Of a DNA stretch of 64,000 bases, positions 47,819 through 58,850 are shown one piece after another. The first letter of the stretch is position 1. Every line of letters begins with the position of its first letter. The stretch is from Candidatus Bathyarchaeota archaeon (GTDB lineage: Archaea; Thermoproteota; Bathyarchaeia; Bathyarchaeales; Bathycorpusculaceae). The notes under the pieces were generated by a model. That model saw nothing but the letters and a program-made list of their open reading frames with translations, ran no database searches and was not told the DNA's origin. Both the position numbers and the translations under genes were made by a program. Location: NCBI GenBank assembly GCA_026014725.1, contig JAOZHV010000044.1, positions 154,272-218,271 of the forward strand. The letters are read 5' to 3'.

Positions 47819-50800
47819 ATGTGCCCTCTAATGACCGAAACTCTTGCTTCCTCAGCTATGAAACGTGTCGAAGATTGGAAATCCCGACTAATCGACCTAT
47901 CAAAACGAAACAACCTCCTCTACTTCCGCAAAACAAAACGCGGCAACCTCCCAATCACACAACCAGACCAACAAAAAATCTTCACAGCCCTTGTGGTAAG
48001 AAAGAACCGCCTAGAATTTTTTATTCCACTCCAAGAACCCAAATCTGAAAAGACAAACGAAAAAGAAAACGGCAAAAACAAGAACAAAACAAAAACTAAA
48101 CCCAAAACAGCAAAACCTCAAGTCACCTCAGCCATCACACAAGAACCCAAACGCCCCACAGCAAACCAACTCGTCTGCGGCAAAATACCCTGTAGCGACC
48201 TTGAAAACACCCTCAAAAGTCTCCAGCGACGCTCACTCCTTGATTACCGTGAACGAGGCGTCCGTATCCTGCATGCGGCATTCGGCACTTTAAACTGGGT
48301 AGACCTTGAAACCAAAGAAAACGTCCAATCGCCACTGATTCTTGTGCCGTTAGAGTTAACGCGAGAAACAATCCGCCAACCCTACACCATTGCAGTCCCG
48401 CCAGTAGAAGATGAAGCGGTGCTAAACCCTGCTTTGCAAGTAAAATTGAAAAATGATTACAAAATTGATTTACCAGCCCTACCTGAAGAATGGGAAAATC
48501 AAAGTTTAGATGATTACTTTAACTCGGTGGAACAGGCAGTTTCTGAAATGGGCTGGAAAGTCGAGCCATCTGTTGATCTGGGACTTTTCTCTTTCCAAAA
48601 ACTCGTCATATACAAAGACCTTGAATCTAACGCTGCCTTGGTTACTCAGCACCCAATCATCAAAGCAATCGCTGGTGTTAGAGACGAGAAACTAATCTTA
48701 GATAACTTACCAGACGAAAAAGATGTGGACAAAATTCAGCTACCCGCAAAAACCTACCAAGTCCTCGACGCCGACAGCAGCCAACGAGTCTCAATAGAAT
48801 ACGCCCTGCGAGGACAAAGCTTCGTCATGAAAGGACCACCTGGCACTGGCAAAAGCCAAACCATCGCCAACATCATCGCTGAATGCATCGCCAACGGCAA
48901 GAGCGTACTCTTTGTAAGCGACAAAATGGCTGCACTAGAAGTGGTATACAAACGCTTAAGTGAGGTGGGATTAGCTCATTTCTGCCTTGAACTCCACAGT
49001 AGCAAGGCTAACAAGCAAGAGGTCGTGGCGGAACTTAAACGTAGCTTAGATGAAAACTTGGTTCCACGCAAACTTCCTTCACCTCACGAATTTGACAGGT
49101 TAATTGAGTATCGTGAAGCCTTAAACGGCTATGTCACGGCACTCCACGAGAAGCACCAGTACCTGCAGAGGAGCGCTTATGAGGTTTTGAGCATAATTTC
49201 CAGTTTGGAGCGGGTACCCTTCGTTCCAGTTGGCTTAACAGAAATAGGAACGCTGACACCTCAAAAAATGCGCGAACTCGAAGAACTAACCATGCAACTG
49301 AGCAAGGTTTGGCAAGTAATCGAGGAACCAGACTTTCCATGGCTCGGATACCACGCTGACAAATACAACCTTGAAATCCGCTCCGAACTCCTCACAACAC
49401 TCGAAAACATTAGCGCAACATTGAGAGCGCTGGAACAGGAAACTGAAGAGTTTGCCGCAGTTTTGGGCGTGTTTCCACCTGAAACTTTTGCTAGAATACA
49501 GTGGCTCATTGAAACAAGCAACCTGCTCCATGAGAGCCCCAAACCAGAAGTTTACTGGCTAACGAACCCAGACCTTGAGAAACTGATAACTGAAGCCAAA
49601 GCCTACAACGAGATGAGCATTTGGATAAAAGAAACACGCGCCAACCTGATGCAACGCTATCACCCTACCCTCTTTGAGTTGGCTCTAACAAGGTCAACGG
49701 AAATGAAGCATGCACTTGCAGCGTTAAGCAAGATGCTTCCAGCAGTCAACATTGAAGAGAGCGAATTCTTAAAGAAGCGAGAGACCTTTTTAGCATTCAT
49801 AAAAAACACACAAGTCGCCGCAAAGAAATGGAATGAAACAGCGCAAGCTCTCGCGCCACTGCTTGGATTAGACGGAACGGACTTAACGGTTACACAGTTA
49901 AAACAGTTATCCCGCATCGCACTATTGTGTTTTGCTGATGATAAACCTGAACCCCAATGGTTCGACGCAAAATATCTAGAACAAGTCCAAGAAACAGTAG
50001 AGAAAGCAAAACTGCAATATCAAGAGTACAACTTGCTCAAAAGCAGATTAGAAGAAACTTACAGCGACGGCATCTATGAATTAGACCTCGACGAACTCAT
50101 AACACGATACAGTGGACCCTACCAGAGTGGGCTTAAAATTTTCAACTCAACCTACCGTAAAGACCAAAAACAAATTGCAAAGATAACAAATGACGGTAAA
50201 GTTCCAAAAGCAATACTGAACGATTTAATTGATGCACGAAGAGTCAAAAAACTGCAGGCAAAAATTGAGGCTTCAGCTGAAACCGTCCGCTCGTTACTTG
50301 GTCACTATTATCACAAAACCCGAACAGACTTCAAAGGCGCCGAAAAAGCCATAGAGTTAACAAAAGAAGTCAGAAACCTGTCATGGGCAACGCAGATACC
50401 TGAAACCTTACTTAAGATACTAACCACACCCACAAATCCTTCACCGATGATCAAGAATCTAGGTCAAGAGCTACAGGCATCTATTGAGAAGTGGGAACAG
50501 CAAATCAAAGACATAGAATTCCTCTTACCAGCGAAACTGTCAAAAGCAGATGCCGCTGTTACTCAGACGCCCATATCAGTGCTGGATGAATGGGTGACGG
50601 AAACAGAAAAGCACCTCAATCACCTATGCGCTCTAACTAAAGAAACGCTAGCGACAAGCAAACAAGAACCCGAAAACTACAAGCAACTTTTAGATGACCT
50701 CAAGAACGCTGAAGACATGCAAAAGAAAGAAGCAAAAATCATAGGTGAAAAAGCTCAACTGCAAGAAAAATTCGGTAGCCGCTTCCAAAGCCTTGAAACA

Positions 50801-53488
50801 AACTGGCAAGACATACTAACTGTGCTTGAATGGTGCAGAAAGGTTCAGGGAGTATTCGGCGATATCCCTGTGCCAGAGGCATTCGCAAGTATTGCCGCAA
50901 AAGGACCAACAGCCGCACCTTCGAATGAGGAGTTATCCAAAAAACGGGACATAGCACTAACTGTTTTGGCTGATTTTGGAAAACGCTTTGAAAGTGAAAT
51001 GAAGTATCAAAACCAGTTATTGAAAGACTTGGAAATCCAAGTTATAAGTGAACGAATCCAAGCCTTCCGTGACCGCGTGGATGACTTGCAGGTTTGGATT
51101 GACTTTAAAGACATAAAAAACCGTTTTGCACTGCGAGGTTTAGATCAGTTCTTTAACCGTCTAGTTGAACAGAAGATTCCAGCAACTGATTTGGTGCCTG
51201 TTTTTCGACGAGGTGTCTATCAGGAATGGATAAACAACCTCTACAATGAGGACCCTAAACTGGGCAGGTTCCGCAGAGAGAACCATGAGCAACTAATCGC
51301 TGACTTTAGAAAACTTGACCAAGAACTTATCCGTCTTACCTCAAGCATGGTTATTGAAGCAGCCAACAGCAGAAAACCCCAAGACATCCTAATCCAAGCC
51401 GCTGACACAGAAGCAAATATCCTGTCAAAAGAGGCAGCCAAGAAGAGGCGATTGATGCCAATCCGCACGCTCATGCAAAAGATACCAAACTTGCTAGTTA
51501 AGCTCAAGCCATGTCTGCTGATGAGTCCAATTTCAGTCAGCCAGTTCCTTCCGCCTGACGCGAAGTTTGATTTGGTTCTCTTTGATGAGGCTTCACAACT
51601 TGTTCCAGAAGATGCCATCGGCGCAATCTATCGGGGAAAAGCCGTTGTTGTAGCAGGCGATAATAGGCAGTTGCCGCCCACGTCGTTCTTCCAAAAGAAC
51701 CTGCTTGATGACGTTGACTGGGATGAGCTAAGTGATGAAGACGTAGAAGTCTTCGACAGCATTCTAGACGAGTGTTTAGGTATCGGCTTGCCAGTTAAAA
51801 CTCTTCGTTGGCACTACCGCAGTAAACATGAAGGGTTAATCGCGTTCTCAAATCACCGTTTCTACGATGACACACTGATTACATTCCCAGCGGCAACAGC
51901 GCAACATGACAGTTTAGGCGTAAAACTTGTCTACGTACCCGACGGAATCTATGATAGGGGCGGCAAAAGAGACAACCCAAGAGAAGCCGAAAAAGTAGCT
52001 GATTTAGTCTTTGAACACTTCAAAAACTACCCAAAGAAAACATTAGGTGTCGTAACATTCAGCATTGCACAAATGAACGCAGTTGAAGAAGCCATCGACC
52101 GCCGACTAAAAGAAGAACCAGAATTTGAGCAGTTCTTTAAGGAAGACCGCTTGGAAGGCTTTTTCGTTAAGAACTTGGAAAACGTGCAAGGTGACGAAAG
52201 GGATGTCATATTCTTCAGTGTTGGGTATGGTTATGATGAAAATGGCAAAATCACTATGAACTTTGGTCCACTAAATAAGCCAGGTGGAGAACGACGGTTA
52301 AATGTTGCAGTAACACGGGCACGCGAGAAAGTATTGTTGATTACTTCGATTAAAGGTTCAGATATTGATCCAGATGCTCAAGCGCTAGGCGTTCAAACAC
52401 TACGCACCTACCTTGATTATGCCGAGCAAGGACCTGAAACTTATTCAGCCAAACGCAAAGATGGAGAGTTTGACTCAATGCTAGATGAAGACATCGCCGC
52501 TGAAATTAAAAAGATGGGCTATGATATTGTTCCGCAAGTAGGTTGTAGTGGATACAAGATAGACATAGGTGTGGTTGATCCTGTTAATCGGGGCAGTTTT
52601 CTGCTTGGTGTAGAATGCGATGGTGAAACATACAGGTCAATCAATAGCGCACGGGACCGCGACAGATTACGCGAACAAGTACTGAGGCAACTGGGCTGGC
52701 GTATTCACCGCGTTTGGTCTCCAGCTTGGGTTGCACGCCGCGACTCTGAAATCCGAAGATTAAAAGAAGCGCTTGAGCAAGCCCAAAAACAGCAGATAGA
52801 AAAGTTCTCTCAAATACCAATCGTTGACAAAGGTTCTGCGCCCTCAGTTGATGTTCAGAAAATCCAGTTTGCAGGAATCGAAAAGATTGGAGTGCCCTAC
52901 AAAGTTCACCCGCTTAAAGCAACTTACAGTCCCTACATCAAGGTTACCACAGCAAAATCCACATACGATTCAAAACAGAAAAACCAATTCCACTTCCCGG
53001 AGAACCGTGCAAACCAAACCAAACTTCTATATGAACTCATACAAAACGAGGGACCAGTTCACTTTGATTATGCTGTTGAACGTTTAGCTGCCACATGGGG
53101 TATAAAGCAGGTTACTCCGAAAATTGCGCATGCCGTCAAAGAGGCATTAAACAATCTGATTCGGGAGCAAAAAGTTGTAATTAAAGGCAGGTTCCTCTGG
53201 CCCCCGCAACTTAAAGAAACTCCTATTCGTGTTCCGATACAGGGCGTTCCAGAGTCTAAACGTAAGGCTCAGTACATTCCACCCGAAGAGATTGAGGCAA
53301 CTATGAAGATAATAGCGCAATATGCTTTAGGCATAAGCGACGATTCATTGATTAATGAAACAGCCAAAGTGTTTGGAATCAACCATTCAGGCAGTGAAGC
53401 TAAAGAAGTGTTCTCTGAAGTTCTAAAGAGGCTGATTAGGGAAAGAAAACTCGTCTGCAAAGATGACGGCGTAATTACCGCCGCTTAA
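47819..53488 (+). CDS. DUF4011-superfamily I helicase-Vsr-like nuclease-DUF3320 protein (candidate antiviral)
   Basis: 1,889 residues. In order: an N-terminal DUF4011 region (WKSRLIDLSKRNNLLYFRKT); SF1 motif I GPPGTGKSQT (residues 339-348); a long helical middle; motif II VLFDEASQ (about 1251), AGDNRQLPP, and the late motifs TLRWHYRSKHEGLIAFSN, NVQGDERDVIFFSVGYG and LNVAVTRAREKVLLI; a Vsr/MTES_1575-type nuclease domain near 1555-1660 (IVPQVGCSGYKIDIGVVDP, GVECDGETYRS, LGWRIHRVWSPAW); and DUF3320 near 1715-1775. Such single-gene helicase-nucleases are known in bacterial defence islands. A/C-rich codon use near the 5' end. Stop overlaps the convergent HAD gene by 4 nt. Confidence 0.88.
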   Translation: MCPLMTETLASSAMKRVEDWKSRLIDLSKRNNLLYFRKTKRGNLPITQPDQQKIFTALVVRKNRLEFFIPLQEPKSEKTNEKENGKNKNKTKTKPKTAKPQVTSAITQEPKRPTANQLVCGKIPCSDLENTLKSLQRRSLLDYRERGVRILHAAFGTLNWVDLETKENVQSPLILVPLELTRETIRQPYTIAVPPVEDEAVLNPALQVKLKNDYKIDLPALPEEWENQSLDDYFNSVEQAVSEMGWKVEPSVDLGLFSFQKLVIYKDLESNAALVTQHPIIKAIAGVRDEKLILDNLPDEKDVDKIQLPAKTYQVLDADSSQRVSIEYALRGQSFVMKGPPGTGKSQTIANIIAECIANGKSVLFVSDKMAALEVVYKRLSEVGLAHFCLELHSSKANKQEVVAELKRSLDENLVPRKLPSPHEFDRLIEYREALNGYVTALHEKHQYLQRSAYEVLSIISSLERVPFVPVGLTEIGTLTPQKMRELEELTMQLSKVWQVIEEPDFPWLGYHADKYNLEIRSELLTTLENISATLRALEQETEEFAAVLGVFPPETFARIQWLIETSNLLHESPKPEVYWLTNPDLEKLITEAKAYNEMSIWIKETRANLMQRYHPTLFELALTRSTEMKHALAALSKMLPAVNIEESEFLKKRETFLAFIKNTQVAAKKWNETAQALAPLLGLDGTDLTVTQLKQLSRIALLCFADDKPEPQWFDAKYLEQVQETVEKAKLQYQEYNLLKSRLEETYSDGIYELDLDELITRYSGPYQSGLKIFNSTYRKDQKQIAKITNDGKVPKAILNDLIDARRVKKLQAKIEASAETVRSLLGHYYHKTRTDFKGAEKAIELTKEVRNLSWATQIPETLLKILTTPTNPSPMIKNLGQELQASIEKWEQQIKDIEFLLPAKLSKADAAVTQTPISVLDEWVTETEKHLNHLCALTKETLATSKQEPENYKQLLDDLKNAEDMQKKEAKIIGEKAQLQEKFGSRFQSLETNWQDILTVLEWCRKVQGVFGDIPVPEAFASIAAKGPTAAPSNEELSKKRDIALTVLADFGKRFESEMKYQNQLLKDLEIQVISERIQAFRDRVDDLQVWIDFKDIKNRFALRGLDQFFNRLVEQKIPATDLVPVFRRGVYQEWINNLYNEDPKLGRFRRENHEQLIADFRKLDQELIRLTSSMVIEAANSRKPQDILIQAADTEANILSKEAAKKRRLMPIRTLMQKIPNLLVKLKPCLLMSPISVSQFLPPDAKFDLVLFDEASQLVPEDAIGAIYRGKAVVVAGDNRQLPPTSFFQKNLLDDVDWDELSDEDVEVFDSILDECLGIGLPVKTLRWHYRSKHEGLIAFSNHRFYDDTLITFPAATAQHDSLGVKLVYVPDGIYDRGGKRDNPREAEKVADLVFEHFKNYPKKTLGVVTFSIAQMNAVEEAIDRRLKEEPEFEQFFKEDRLEGFFVKNLENVQGDERDVIFFSVGYGYDENGKITMNFGPLNKPGGERRLNVAVTRAREKVLLITSIKGSDIDPDAQALGVQTLRTYLDYAEQGPETYSAKRKDGEFDSMLDEDIAAEIKKMGYDIVPQVGCSGYKIDIGVVDPVNRGSFLLGVECDGETYRSINSARDRDRLREQVLRQLGWRIHRVWSPAWVARRDSEIRRLKEALEQAQKQQIEKFSQIPIVDKGSAPSVDVQKIQFAGIEKIGVPYKVHPLKATYSPYIKVTTAKSTYDSKQKNQFHFPENRANQTKLLYELIQNEGPVHFDYAVERLAATWGIKQVTPKIAHAVKEALNNLIREQKVVIKGRFLWPPQLKETPIRVPIQGVPESKRKAQYIPPEEIEATMKIIAQYALGISDDSLINETAKVFGINHSGSEAKEVFSEVLKRLIRERKLVCKDDGVITAA

Positions 53489-54379: not shown

Positions 54380-54613
54380 ATGAATTTAGATGAGTACACA
54401 AAAGAGAAGCTCTGGCAATTACTCGTCGAAGCCGTTCATGCATCAGTGATGTACCCAACCCACAAAGCCTACGTTCGAGACTCAATTCTACCTACCAATG
54501 TTGAAGTTACACCGGATGAACTTGTGCAGAGACTCGGTATGCCGCTTGGCGAAGCATTAGTGATTTTGAGTGAGTTGCAGCCAGACCGAAAAATTCAGCT
54601 TAGAGGACACTGA
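54380..54613 (+). CDS. Small HTH-like protein
   Basis: 77 residues. The C-terminal half (VTPDELVQRLGMPLGEALVI, LSELQPDRKIQLRG) reads like a small winged-helix domain; the N-terminal part is helical. No family recognised. Its last 14 nt overlap the convergent transporter ATPase gene. The opposite-strand frame over it is not protein-like. Confidence 0.55.
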   Translation: MNLDEYTKEKLWQLLVEAVHASVMYPTHKAYVRDSILPTNVEVTPDELVQRLGMPLGEALVILSELQPDRKIQLRGH

Positions 54614-55661
54614 CGCTCGAAGCTTTAAATGCGATATAAACTTCAGAGGCCAAGTTGAGGCCCATCTCTTTAAACGACCTCTTAGTAATCTGAACCACAA
54701 AAACTCTGCCCACATTCACTTTAATCTTAACAAGAGCACCCGAATCGGTTATCTCGCTGATTTTGCCCCTAAACACGTTTCTGGCGCTTGATTGAATAGG
54801 GCTCATTGAGAGGATGATGTCTTGCGGGCTGACAAAAATCGATGTTTCGCCGTGGCTTTGAGTTGTAACCTCAATATGCACGCCGTTACCGATGTCCACT
54901 ATCGTTGTCCCTTCTGCTGATGACTGAGCGACTCCCCTGAAAGTGTTATCGACAGCGGCAAAACTTGCCAAGTTCCTTGAAAGCTTCCCGAAAATATCCA
55001 CTGGCAAACCCACCTCGGTAATTCTACCATTATTTATCAAAGCGATGCGACTGGGCAGAACCTTGGCTTGAAACATATTGTGGGTTGCTACGACAATTGT
55101 TGTTTTTAGCTCCTGATTGATTTTTACTATTGCTTCTTCGATTATCTGAGCGTTTTTCGGGTCCAAGTTTGCTGTGGGCTCATCCAAAAGCAAAAGTTTA
55201 GTTTTCAACACCAACGCTCTGGCTATGGCGACTCTTTGCTGTTCTCCGCCTGAAAGCTTTTTCGCCGAGCGCTTCTCAAAACCCTCCAGCTTCACAATTT
55301 GAAGCGCTTCTTTGACTGCCTCATCGCACTGTGATTTCGGAATTTTTCTAATTTTTAACCCGTAAGCCACATTATCGTAAACTGAAGCATCAAAGAGAGC
55401 GGTCTTTTGGAATACTAAAGTGCTTTGACGGCGGAACTCTTCAGCATTTTTCTGGTTGACATTTATGTTTTCGAAGGTTACTTCTCCCCCAGTCGGGTGC
55501 TCAAGGAAGGCGAGAATTTTTAGTATTGTGGATTTTCCTGAACCGTTGGGACCAAGCAAAGCCAGGATTTCACCTTGGTGAACCTGCAAGTTGACATTAT
55601 CCAACGCCACAGTATCAGCGAATAATTTGGTTACATTTTTTAATTCAGCGATTACACTCAA
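54600..55661 (-). CDS. Tungstate/molybdate ABC transporter ATPase
   Basis: 353 residues from the TTG at 55661 (AAGGAGAG eight nt upstream, over the end of the permease gene); an upstream ATG at 55694 would overlap the permease. Walker A GPNGSGKST, signature LSGGEQQRVAIARAL, Walker B LLLDEPTANLD, then a C-terminal TOBE oxyanion domain (RNVFRGKISEITDSGALVKI). With the permease and binding protein it forms a Tup/Wtp-type importer. Confidence 0.9.
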   Translation of the reverse strand: MSVIAELKNVTKLFADTVALDNVNLQVHQGEILALLGPNGSGKSTILKILAFLEHPTGGEVTFENINVNQKNAEEFRRQSTLVFQKTALFDASVYDNVAYGLKIRKIPKSQCDEAVKEALQIVKLEGFEKRSAKKLSGGEQQRVAIARALVLKTKLLLLDEPTANLDPKNAQIIEEAIVKINQELKTTIVVATHNMFQAKVLPSRIALINNGRITEVGLPVDIFGKLSRNLASFAAVDNTFRGVAQSSAEGTTIVDIGNGVHIEVTTQSHGETSIFVSPQDIILSMSPIQSSARNVFRGKISEITDSGALVKIKVNVGRVFVVQITKRSFKEMGLNLASEVYIAFKASSVSVL

Positions 55662-55675
55662 TCTGAACACTCTCC

Positions 55676-56395
55676 TTACTGAGGCGACCTCCAAACAACC
55701 AGAGCCATTTTGATTCGGCGAGCACCAATTACTACAATGTTAATTAAGAAAACAATTATCATCAATAGTATTCCTAGCGCAATTGCGAAACCAATATCGT
55801 TTGTTTGCGTGTATCTAGAAATAGCTGTTGTCAAGACATCAGTTAACCCTGCTATGTTACCGCCCACCAGCAACGCCACGCCTAACTCAGCAATGGCTCG
55901 GTTAAAGCTAGCAATGTTTGACAGTAACACTCCGTTCACTGCTTCTTTTAAAACGACAATTGAGGCATGTGATTCTGAAGCACCGAGCGTTTTTGCAAGA
56001 GTCAGGATTTCTGGGTCAACTGATTCTATTGCGGTTATCAAAATACTAATCAGTATTGGAGTTACAAGAACGGCTTCGCCGATGATAATGGCGGCTGGTG
56101 TATAGAGCAAACCCAAAAAGCCTAGTGGTCCGCTCTTTGAGAATATTAGAAAGAGAACCAAACCCAACACTACCGTGGGTATGGCTATTAATGAGTTAAA
56201 GAAACCTTTCACGATGGTCTTGCCGCGGAAGTCTCTTAAGCCGATTAGCATAGCGATTGGGGTTCCCCATAACGCAGCCAAGATGACGGCGACTCCTGAA
56301 AAAAGCAGTGAGCGATAGACTATTCCGTAAAGCGTTGGGTCTCCTGTTATGATTAAGCGTCCAGCTTCTATTATACCGCCAAGTACATCGACCAA
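55676..56395 (-). CDS. tupB: Tungstate/molybdate ABC transporter permease
   Basis: 239 residues with about six helices and the permease EAA-like loop (ILTLAKTLGASESHASIVVL then AVNGVLLSNIASFNRAIAELG). The extended TupB-like form (LLVGGNIAGLTDVLTTAIS) favours tungstate over ModB. A 12-nt gap separates it from the binding-protein gene. Confidence 0.88.
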   Translation of the reverse strand: MVDVLGGIIEAGRLIITGDPTLYGIVYRSLLFSGVAVILAALWGTPIAMLIGLRDFRGKTIVKGFFNSLIAIPTVVLGLVLFLIFSKSGPLGFLGLLYTPAAIIIGEAVLVTPILISILITAIESVDPEILTLAKTLGASESHASIVVLKEAVNGVLLSNIASFNRAIAELGVALLVGGNIAGLTDVLTTAISRYTQTNDIGFAIALGILLMIIVFLINIVVIGARRIKMALVVWRSPQ

Positions 56396-56407
56396 ATTTG
56401 TCGTCCT

Positions 56408-57421
56408 CTAAGTGTAGAGTTCTGGGTAGCCATTTCTGTATTGCTGTGGACATTCGGTGCCGTTAAAGAAAGCGGCGCTTTGTATCCAACTTACGATTGG
56501 TTGTGGCGCGTTATCTTTTAGTGGTTGCACTGCACCGTAGAATAAGCTTTGACCGTAGTCTGCTTTGCCGTAGTTTTCTATGAACTGTTGCGTTTCAGAC
56601 GAAACCAGGTACTTTATGAAATCCATTGCATCAACATAGTTTATCTTGTCGTGAATGGTTTGGTTTGCTGGCACCGTCTGGTTTACTGCCATGACGCTGT
56701 AGACATTAAGTAAAGATTTTTCTTCAGTTAATAGGGCAGTTAACGAAATTGAGTTGTCTTTTTCGAATTTGAGGAATGTACCTATGTCTGATAATGTGTA
56801 AGCGTTTTTTTGGTCAGCCACAGTTAAGGTTGCTCCCATACCTTGACCAACGTTGGCGTACCATGGTTGCGTTGAGATTTCGGTATAGTTGTAACCTGCG
56901 GCTTTCCAGAGGGCTTGCTCTTTGCTGTGCGTGCCTGAGTTGTCGCCTCTTGAAATCCAGATTTTGGTTTGTCCTGACTGGTCAGTAAGGTTTCCTCCGT
57001 AGTTGGCTATGGCTCTGAGTGCTTGGTTTGTGGCTTTGCCCTCTATTCGTGCGGGGTCGTTTTCTGGCCCAACTATAGTGAAGTAGTTGTAGGCGATGAT
57101 TTTGCGGTTTAATCCCCAGCCTTGCTCGAGAAAGGTTAGTTCTTGGGCGGGTGCATGGACAAGGATGAGGTCTGCGTCGCCGTTTTTGGCGTGTTGTATT
57201 GCGATTCCTGTTCCTGCGGCTATGATGTTTATGTCTATGTCTGTGTGTTTAGTTTCGTAGTCTTTTTCGAGTAATTCGAGGAGCCCTGTATCGTATAGGC
57301 TTGTGGTGACGGATATTATTAGACGCCTTTTGGGCGATAGCTCAAAATATGCTATTGTTCCCGCTATAACAACGATTGTTGCAAGAACTGCTGCGGCGAG
57401 TAGTTTTTGCCATGTTTTCAT
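56408..57421 (-). CDS. tupA: Tungstate-type ABC transporter substrate-binding protein
   Basis: 337 residues: an N-terminal helix (LLAAAVLATIVVIAGTIAYF) as signal or lipid-free anchor, then the TupA core. VTTSLYDTGLLELLEKDY resembles the TTS-DSGLL oxyanion loop of tungstate-binding proteins, with AAGTGIAIQHAKNGDADLIL and RGDNSGTHSKEQALW as further conserved segments. First gene of the importer operon, divergent from the ModE-like regulator. Confidence 0.9.
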   Translation of the reverse strand: MKTWQKLLAAAVLATIVVIAGTIAYFELSPKRRLIISVTTSLYDTGLLELLEKDYETKHTDIDINIIAAGTGIAIQHAKNGDADLILVHAPAQELTFLEQGWGLNRKIIAYNYFTIVGPENDPARIEGKATNQALRAIANYGGNLTDQSGQTKIWISRGDNSGTHSKEQALWKAAGYNYTEISTQPWYANVGQGMGATLTVADQKNAYTLSDIGTFLKFEKDNSISLTALLTEEKSLLNVYSVMAVNQTVPANQTIHDKINYVDAMDFIKYLVSSETQQFIENYGKADYGQSLFYGAVQPLKDNAPQPIVSWIQSAAFFNGTECPQQYRNGYPELYT

Positions 57422-57451
57422 GTTAAGCTACCGTTGTGTTTGCTCATACAT

Positions 57452-57476
57452 ATCATTAACCTTATAAACCTTACCA
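57452..57476. promoter_or_regulatory. Near-palindromic shared TATA region of tupA and the ModE-like gene
   Basis: AACCTTATAAACCTTA (57459-57474) reads TAAGGTTTATAAGGTT on the other strand, giving a TATA box in both directions. It lies about 30 nt from the TTG of the regulator (57495), consistent with a leaderless mRNA, and about 45 nt from the tupA ATG (57421). An operator for the regulator may overlap it. Confidence 0.5.
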
Positions 57477-57494
57477 CAAATAACTTAAATTGAA

Positions 57495-58052
57495 TTGTTA
57501 GCCAACAAAAAACATAAACTTTCATGCAAGGCGTGGATTGAATATAAAGGTAAACCCCTAATTGGTAAAGGCGGGGCAGAAATTCTGCAAACAATTGATG
57601 CTGAAAATTCGATTTCTAAAGCGGCTGAAACGTTGGGTATGTCTTACCGTTACATGTGGAACTACATACAAGAAATCCAAAGCGCCATGGGCCAGCAGAT
57701 TGTTGAAACCTATAAGGGTGGAAAAGCTGGCGGTGGCGGTGCGCGGTTGACTGCTTTGGGCAAAAGTTTGCTTGATGAGTATAAGCAAGTGGAGGATTAT
57801 TTGGATAAGGTTTTGTCTGCTAGTGGTGTTTTGGAGTTGGAAGGTTTGAAGTTGAGTGCGCGGAATCGTTTGAAGGGTAAAGTTGTTGCCGTTGAGAAAG
57901 AAGAAATAACGGCGAAAGTTAAGGTTGAAGTCGCAATGCCTGTAACCATAACATCAGTGATAACTAAAGATGCAGTTGAGGATTTAGATATTAAAGTAGG
58001 CGATGAAGTTACTGTAATCGTGAAATCAACCGAAATCATGATTGCGAAGTAG
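57495..58052 (+). CDS. modE: ModE-like molybdate/tungstate-responsive regulator
   Basis: 185 residues: a LysR/ModE-type HTH (GGAEILQTIDAENSISKAAE, LGMSYRYMWNYIQEIQS), the GKAGGGGARLTALGKSLL wing, and a C-terminal Mop/TOBE domain (SARNRLKGKVVAVEKEEITA, PVTITSVITKDAVEDLDIKV) that binds the oxyanion. It likely represses the divergent tup operon when the metal is plentiful. Confidence 0.9.
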   Translation: MLANKKHKLSCKAWIEYKGKPLIGKGGAEILQTIDAENSISKAAETLGMSYRYMWNYIQEIQSAMGQQIVETYKGGKAGGGGARLTALGKSLLDEYKQVEDYLDKVLSASGVLELEGLKLSARNRLKGKVVAVEKEEITAKVKVEVAMPVTITSVITKDAVEDLDIKVGDEVTVIVKSTEIMIAK

Positions 58053-58057
58053 GTTTC

Positions 58058-58609
58058 TTATTCTACTACGTACCTGTAGGTTACGTGTTCGCCTGCTGTT
58101 TGGCTTTGTCGTGTGATTTTGAGGACGTCGCCGGGTTTTGCGCCTATTACTTTGACTGCGGGGTCGCCTGATTTTATTTGTGGCATTTGGTAGGGTTTGA
58201 CTTTGAATTGTGCGAGGAGTTGGTTTTTCTCTTTTTCGCTTAGGATTTCGTGGAAGGGCACTAGTGCATGTTCAAAGATGTCGAAGACGGGGAAGGATTT
58301 TGGTAGCAATTCGACGTTTTTCTTTTTTGCGCCAAGTTTGACTGCGTGGGTGTAGCGTCCTTCTGTGACTACGATGGCTCGGTCGATTTCTTTTTCTTTC
58401 ATTATTTTGTAGAGGGTATTCATTGCTGCGATACCGACTGTTGCCTCGCCTAGAATGCACCAGACTAGTGCTTTTTCTTTGTCTTGTGGAATTTCGATGA
58501 TGTAGGCGTATGCGCCTTCATATTTTTGTTTTTCAATTAGCTTGTACTTTCTAAGCTTGATTAGGACTTCTGCTTTGCGTTCTTCGATTGTTTGAACTTT
58601 CGTTTTCAA
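58058..58609 (-). CDS. rpo5: RNA polymerase subunit Rpo5/RpoH with N-terminal Rpb5-like jaw domain
   Basis: 183 residues from the TTG at 58609 (GAGGT seven nt upstream; an ATG at 58654 would add 15 residues). The last 75 residues are classical Rpo5: HALVPFHEILSEKEKN, QMPQIKSGDPAVKVIGAKPG, KITRQSQTAGEHVTYRYVV. Archaeal Rpo5 normally has only this part (about 75-85 residues). Here another 105 residues precede it and align in order with the eukaryotic Rpb5 jaw: ALVWCILGEATVGIAAMNTL, MKEKEIDRAIVVTEGRYTHA, FDIFEHALVP. The gene is not next to rpoB/rpoA; it is convergent with the ModE-like gene. Confidence 0.85.
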   Translation of the reverse strand: MKTKVQTIEERKAEVLIKLRKYKLIEKQKYEGAYAYIIEIPQDKEKALVWCILGEATVGIAAMNTLYKIMKEKEIDRAIVVTEGRYTHAVKLGAKKKNVELLPKSFPVFDIFEHALVPFHEILSEKEKNQLLAQFKVKPYQMPQIKSGDPAVKVIGAKPGDVLKITRQSQTAGEHVTYRYVVE

Positions 58610-58850
58610 ACCACAAACCTCAAGGTGAGAATACTCGCAACCTAAAACAAACATTTACCCTTAAACTTTTCTCTTTAAAAGTACGGCGAAATCAACGAAA
58701 AACGTTCTATTTCTAAAAATTAAATGTTTTACTGATTTTTTGTATGTTTTTTGAGAAAAACTAGCCGTTCTGGGGTTTAGGGCATTTTTAGTGGTCTATA
58801 ACAAGGGCTTCTATTAGAAAGAGGGGAGCAATAACGGTTGCGATTTTTTT

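Follow-up and report, generated by a model that had tools for sequence, protein, structure and literature searches.

The locus raised the question whether an archaeal RNA polymerase (RNAP) can carry, on its own subunit 5 (Rpo5, also RpoH), the N-terminal jaw of eukaryotic Rpb5, and from where such a domain was obtained. According to the literature, archaeal Rpo5 lacks the jaw, which is found in eukarya only (PMC2675907, PMC3906176), in line with the preliminary description of this DNA, which had called the jaw a eukaryotic feature. The window is the whole stretch of 64,000 nucleotides that was analyzed. It belongs to a Bathycorpusculum-like genome, the named relatives being Candidatus Bathycorpusculum and other Bathyarchaeota MAGs. 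The answer put forward here, held at a probability of about 0.8, is that the sole Rpo5 of this archaeon is a two-domain protein, the N-terminal domain of which would act as a lower jaw at the downstream DNA and would descend from an Mrr-type nuclease fold that has lost cleavage.

The gene was located in a single open frame of 198 codons (58058-58654, minus strand), previously taken to start at ATG 58654. This start was rejected based on the comparison of relatives. TTG was the start codon in 55 of 70 distinct long homologues, and in 56 of the 70 the start fell in the column of the window TTG, corresponding to residue 16 of the longer frame. GAGG or a close variant was kept ahead of the start codon in nearly all of 26 aligned relatives, and several relatives carried stop codons within the 15 extra upstream codons. 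With translation starting at TTG 58609, the protein therefore counts 183 rather than 198 amino acids, and the extra domain about 106. Coordinates are collected in Table 1. The TATA-like element ACTTTTAAAG possibly directs a transcription start near 58650, at the rejected ATG.

Table 1. Features of the rpo5 locus, in window coordinates
Feature	Position	Strand	Basis or remark
rpo5 (rpoH), long form, 183 aa	58058..58609	-	TTG start 58607-58609, stop 58058-58060
N-terminal jaw-like domain, residues 2-107, predicted inactive Mrr/PD-(D/E)XK fold	58289..58606	-	Pfam, AF2, Foldseek, jaw-only profile
C-terminal assembly domain RNA_pol_Rpb5_C, residues 109-183	58061..58285	-	Pfam, NCBIfam
Shine-Dalgarno GAGG, 9-12 nt 5' of TTG start	58618..58621	-	alignment of relatives
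Possible TATA-like element ACTTTTAAAG	58673..58682	-	read from the sequence by eye, without statistical test
ATG start of the preliminary description	58652..58654	-	probably unused

Next to rpo5 (54600-58052), the open frames were read as likely tungstate/molybdate-type ABC transporter genes for an ATPase, a permease and a binding protein, accompanied by a ModE-like HTH and TOBE regulator assigned by Pfam. A 1889-aa helicase-like open frame (47819-53488), the sequence of which reads as superfamily 1 and includes a nuclease-like part, is possibly defence-related.

The presence of an Rpo5 C-terminal domain was confirmed. Residues 109-183 of the 183-aa protein matched Pfam RNA_pol_Rpb5_C with 102.5 bits against a curated cut-off of 23.5 (E 1.1e-29), and NCBIfam NF007129 (subunit H) was matched with 104.9 against a cut-off of 83. 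The whole domain (NF007129, PF01191) is shared with ordinary archaeal Rpo5/RpoH of 75-85 aa, which have no N-terminal domain, whereas the window Rpo5 is fused to one. In solved archaeal and eukaryotic RNAPs, this assembly domain binds Rpo1. Following a profile search of the 2.56-Mb genome (97% complete), the window gene was the sole RNA_pol_Rpb5_C match, and no second, short Rpo5 was found in the rpoB operon of the same genome. Being the only copy, the long Rpo5 is expected to sit in the RNAP of this archaeon.

The preceding residues, about 105 in the preliminary description, indeed lie in one uninterrupted frame and are conserved in 53 of 61 relatives. The dN/dS of this region was 0.03-0.12 where computable, much like that of the assembly domain; the region is thus under strong purifying selection and is real coding sequence. 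Pfam Mrr_cat and NA-iREase1 matched all of 27 representative N-domains with E-values no higher than 1, the best being 1e-11 and 6e-11, and the window protein scored above both curated cut-offs (Mrr_cat 28.0 bits against 21). PF03871 (RNA_pol_Rpb5_N) gave no match on the window protein at E up to 10, and a genome search with it returned nothing at the rpo5 gene.

The N-domain alone was modeled by AF2 with a pLDDT of 93.1, a pTM of 0.86 and the topology H-E-E-E-H-E-H-E. Using Foldseek against 350,542 PDB chains, this model retrieved eukaryotic Rpb5 first (2.4e-4), followed by matches including the restriction endonucleases (REases) MspJI (1.2e-3) and AspBHI. Similarly, a sequence profile of the jaw only, run against all PDB sequences, placed eukaryotic Rpb5 at the top (E 1.4e-4), the next unrelated chain scoring 0.2. 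The full-length model (pLDDT 86.7) matched eukaryotic Rpb5, its best structural match in the PDB, over both domains (E 3e-16, TM 0.72-0.79), a superposition to be read knowing that Rpb5 structures were in the AF2 training set and that no inter-domain error map was available. Profile-profile comparison gave E 6.8e-31 from the jaw through the C-domain and E 2.3e-6 for the jaw only. The predicted fold is thus of the Rpb5 jaw type, as proposed earlier, and not an unrelated one.

In the alignment, the catalytic D...(E/Q)xK is gone from the Bathyarchaeial jaw: WCI(L/P) replaces (E/Q)xK and no Asp is aligned. Both D and (E/Q)xK are retained in some of the archaeal nucleases included in this alignment (L120, L121). 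The N-domain of yeast RPB5 was published as a PD-(D/E)XK fold devoid of the residues for catalysis (PMC551604, PMC1185551); the Mrr and Rpb5 matches are therefore in agreement. The high-confidence prediction for the Bathyarchaeial N-domain is an Mrr/PD-(D/E)XK restriction-endonuclease fold that has lost its catalysis. In one long Rpo5 (L108, G060:C43, 5992-6633), a four-cysteine zinc-ribbon-like insert was observed in the jaw, just before the last strand.

Compared with eukaryotic Rpb5/RPABC1, the window protein has in common the domain order, the C-terminal domain, an REase-like N-terminal fold without catalytic residues, an aligned VG(I/V), a TPSA-type threonine and the junction (I)xEHxLVP. 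The Rpb5-like motifs quoted in the preliminary description are present; VG(I/V), however, is found as well in small Mrr-type proteins encoded by these archaea and is therefore not jaw-specific by itself. At about 106 aa, the Bathyarchaeial jaw falls short of the eukaryotic one (about 135 aa). The insert that follows helix 1 in eukaryotes is missing from it, as are the factor-contact lysines K81/K85 of Rpb5 (PMC8140126). Unlike the eukaryotic jaw, it is not matched by PF03871, and it carries a positive net charge, +8 in the window protein with a family median of +5, where five eukaryotic jaws have -3. With the Mrr_cat/NA-iREase1 families it shares the fold and an above-cut-off Pfam match; it differs from them by the missing D...(E/Q)xK and by its fusion to an RNAP subunit.

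Long forms (open frames of about 180-240 aa) were found throughout the Bathyarchaeia order comprising families f1-f9 and in families f16 and f21-f23, and short forms in families f10-f15 and f17-f20, most sampled families having the long form. The search of Thermoproteota genomes for long Rpo5 showed the fusion to be widespread in Bathyarchaeia rather than limited to the window contig; it recurred in independent assemblies from many projects (L033-L071). Among 397 Thermoproteota genomes sampled (about 310 non-Bathyarchaeia), no long form was detected outside Bathyarchaeia, and the jaw profile gave weak nuclease-like matches only. In some Bathyarchaeia, two or three divergent long copies were present (G176, with L252, L254 and L256; G043, G040, G094 and G137), which suggests alternative polymerase forms.

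Gene position differed between the two forms. In 14 of 14 short-form Bathyarchaeia inspected, rpo5 was immediately 5' of an RpoB-length open frame (split in one), whereas it directly preceded rpoB in none of 18 long-form loci. In the window genome, rpoB heads an rpoB-rpoA-like cluster without rpo5 upstream, and rpo5 lies about 93 kb off on the same contig. The open frame after rpoB (L151, G000:C44, 7316-11161) encodes 1282 aa, long enough to accommodate A' and A'' of Rpo1 in one unsplit chain. Since the short relatives keep the ancestral operon position and the long forms do not, the long form looks derived, and its gene has moved away from the rpoB operon. Long-form genomes were split into three groups in a quick RpoB tree. 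Holding them as one clade gave a better likelihood (AU p=0.62), and because this constraint was not rejected, one gain of the long form is compatible with the tree.

The restricted and apparently derived distribution points to a gain inside Bathyarchaeia, hence to independent capture or transfer; each account of the jaw's origin given below is compatible with a two-domain Rpo5 acting as lower jaw. Size-matched HMMs of six sequences each were scored on five eukaryotic jaws. L164, a truncated long Rpo5, was excluded from the nuclease set, and the Arabidopsis Rpb5 N-terminus was taken as printed in the PDB. Medians of 12-20 bits were obtained with Bathyarchaeial-jaw HMMs, against 0-7 bits for local nucleases, about 0-1 for the small Mrr-like family and 6-10 for the jaw paralogue family. 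In the domain tree, eukaryotic jaws, archaeal jaws and archaeal-jaw paralogues were separated from the nucleases with support 98/98, on a very long eukaryotic branch (2.8 changes per site). The phylogeny proposed earlier as a check thus groups the eukaryotic jaw with the archaeal ones, but the alternative tree with the eukaryotic jaw among the nucleases was not rejected (AU p=0.28). In the C-domain tree (75 columns), the long forms as one clade were not rejected; as the placement of the eukaryotic sequences inside or beside the long forms was likewise not rejected, this short tree is uninformative on the eukaryotic link. Taken from the sequences, jaw trees and profiles lean to kinship with the eukaryotic jaw.

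At about even odds, the Rpo5 N-terminus received two different Mrr-type nuclease-fold domains in separate fusions, one in Bathyarchaeia and one in the eukaryotic stem, the two jaws being analogous in origin despite their common fold. The confinement to Bathyarchaeia, the ancestral operon position kept by short Rpo5, the match to Mrr_cat instead of PF03871, the AU result and the other inactive-looking REase-fold proteins found in the same genomes all fit such separate events, which are opposed by the higher bit scores of the jaw-family profiles, by the side of the tree on which the eukaryotic jaw falls and by the rank of Rpb5 above REases in the jaw-only searches.

Somewhat doubtful, yet to be taken seriously, is the derivation of both jaws from a single fusion event in archaea, by which Rpo5 acquired a dead Mrr-type nuclease domain, or from a transfer between lineages, with loss or displacement elsewhere. 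It would explain the shared domain order, fold, loss of catalysis and junction, and agrees with the 98/98 grouping, with the long-plus-eukaryotic clade not rejected on the C-domain, and with the profile E-values for Rpb5 and for the jaw only. It also requires many losses or a transfer, finds no long form elsewhere in a sample that covered Thermoproteota only, and leans on a placement that may be an artefact of the long eukaryotic branch. The proto-jaw of the preliminary description, taken as ancestral to Rpb5, is accordingly a possible reading: Rpb5 is the top PDB match by fold and by sequence with the same domain order, but PF03871 does not match, the long form is Bathyarchaeia-only among the Thermoproteota sampled, and independent capture is not rejected.

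Related domains were observed in the same archaea. In a second family of about 175-205 aa, the jaw-like N-domain is followed by a C-terminal tail rich in Cys instead of the Rpo5 domain. One member is in the window genome (L171, G000:C29:158160-158678), others being L152-L156, L169 and L170; in 151 genomes searched, the family was confined to Bathyarchaeia. A small Mrr-like protein of about 115-140 aa with a motif like KDWKRTVGVN is conserved in many genomes (L141, L144, L148, L136, L146) and is a weak relative of the jaw.

As for function, the position of the Rpb5 jaw and its contacts with DNA and factors have been described for Pol II (PMC2675907, PMC8140126, PMC12368070). A literature search for the structure or biochemistry of Bathyarchaeial RNAP returned none. 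From the superposition of the full-length model, the N-domain most likely forms a lower jaw on the downstream DNA. It would brace this DNA and/or dock factors, occupying a position that is vacant in ordinary archaeal RNAPs. In the Sulfolobales RNAP, the corresponding place is filled by Rpo13. Direct DNA contact fits the positive net charge of the jaw. Its probable source is an Mrr-type nuclease fold from the archaeal pool, which would have lost cleavage.

That the N-domain is instead a regulatory or nucleic-acid-binding appendage fused to Rpo5, such as a defence-linked inactive REase, is improbable: the Pfam labels NA-iREase1 and Mrr_cat and the occurrence of a jaw-like domain with a Cys-rich tail and no Rpo5 would suit it, but most sampled Bathyarchaeia families carry the domain on their one copy of an essential subunit, and its position in the model corresponds to that in Rpb5. 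An annotation, assembly or gene-fusion artefact specific to the window contig, for which no supporting point was found, was dismissed given the same fusion in 53 of 61 relatives, in independent assemblies of many families and projects, and under purifying selection.

In the open-access literature searched for Rpo5/RpoH of Bathyarchaeota or Asgard archaea, a long archaeal Rpo5 was nowhere described, an earlier mention elsewhere being possible. The small subunits of archaeal RNAP were surveyed in May 2026 with respect to Rpo6 and Rpo8, and passages of this survey on Rpo5 and Bathyarchaeota make no mention of a long Rpo5 (PMC13257274).

In structure papers, the Rpb5 jaw is counted among the few large eukaryote-only parts of the RNAP core, and a jawed Rpo5 in a large uncultured archaeal group departs from this description. 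Either the archaeal subunit represents a source of the eukaryotic jaw, or this fold was installed at the corresponding position on two separate occasions. If a single archaeal fusion gave rise to both, the source of the eukaryotic jaw would be prokaryotic and nuclease-derived, and would survive in living archaea. The dead-nuclease fold in archaeal Rpo5 is a testable clue to the provenance of the eukaryotic jaw and lends support to the view that the jaw was at first a DNA-binding domain of the restriction-endonuclease type.
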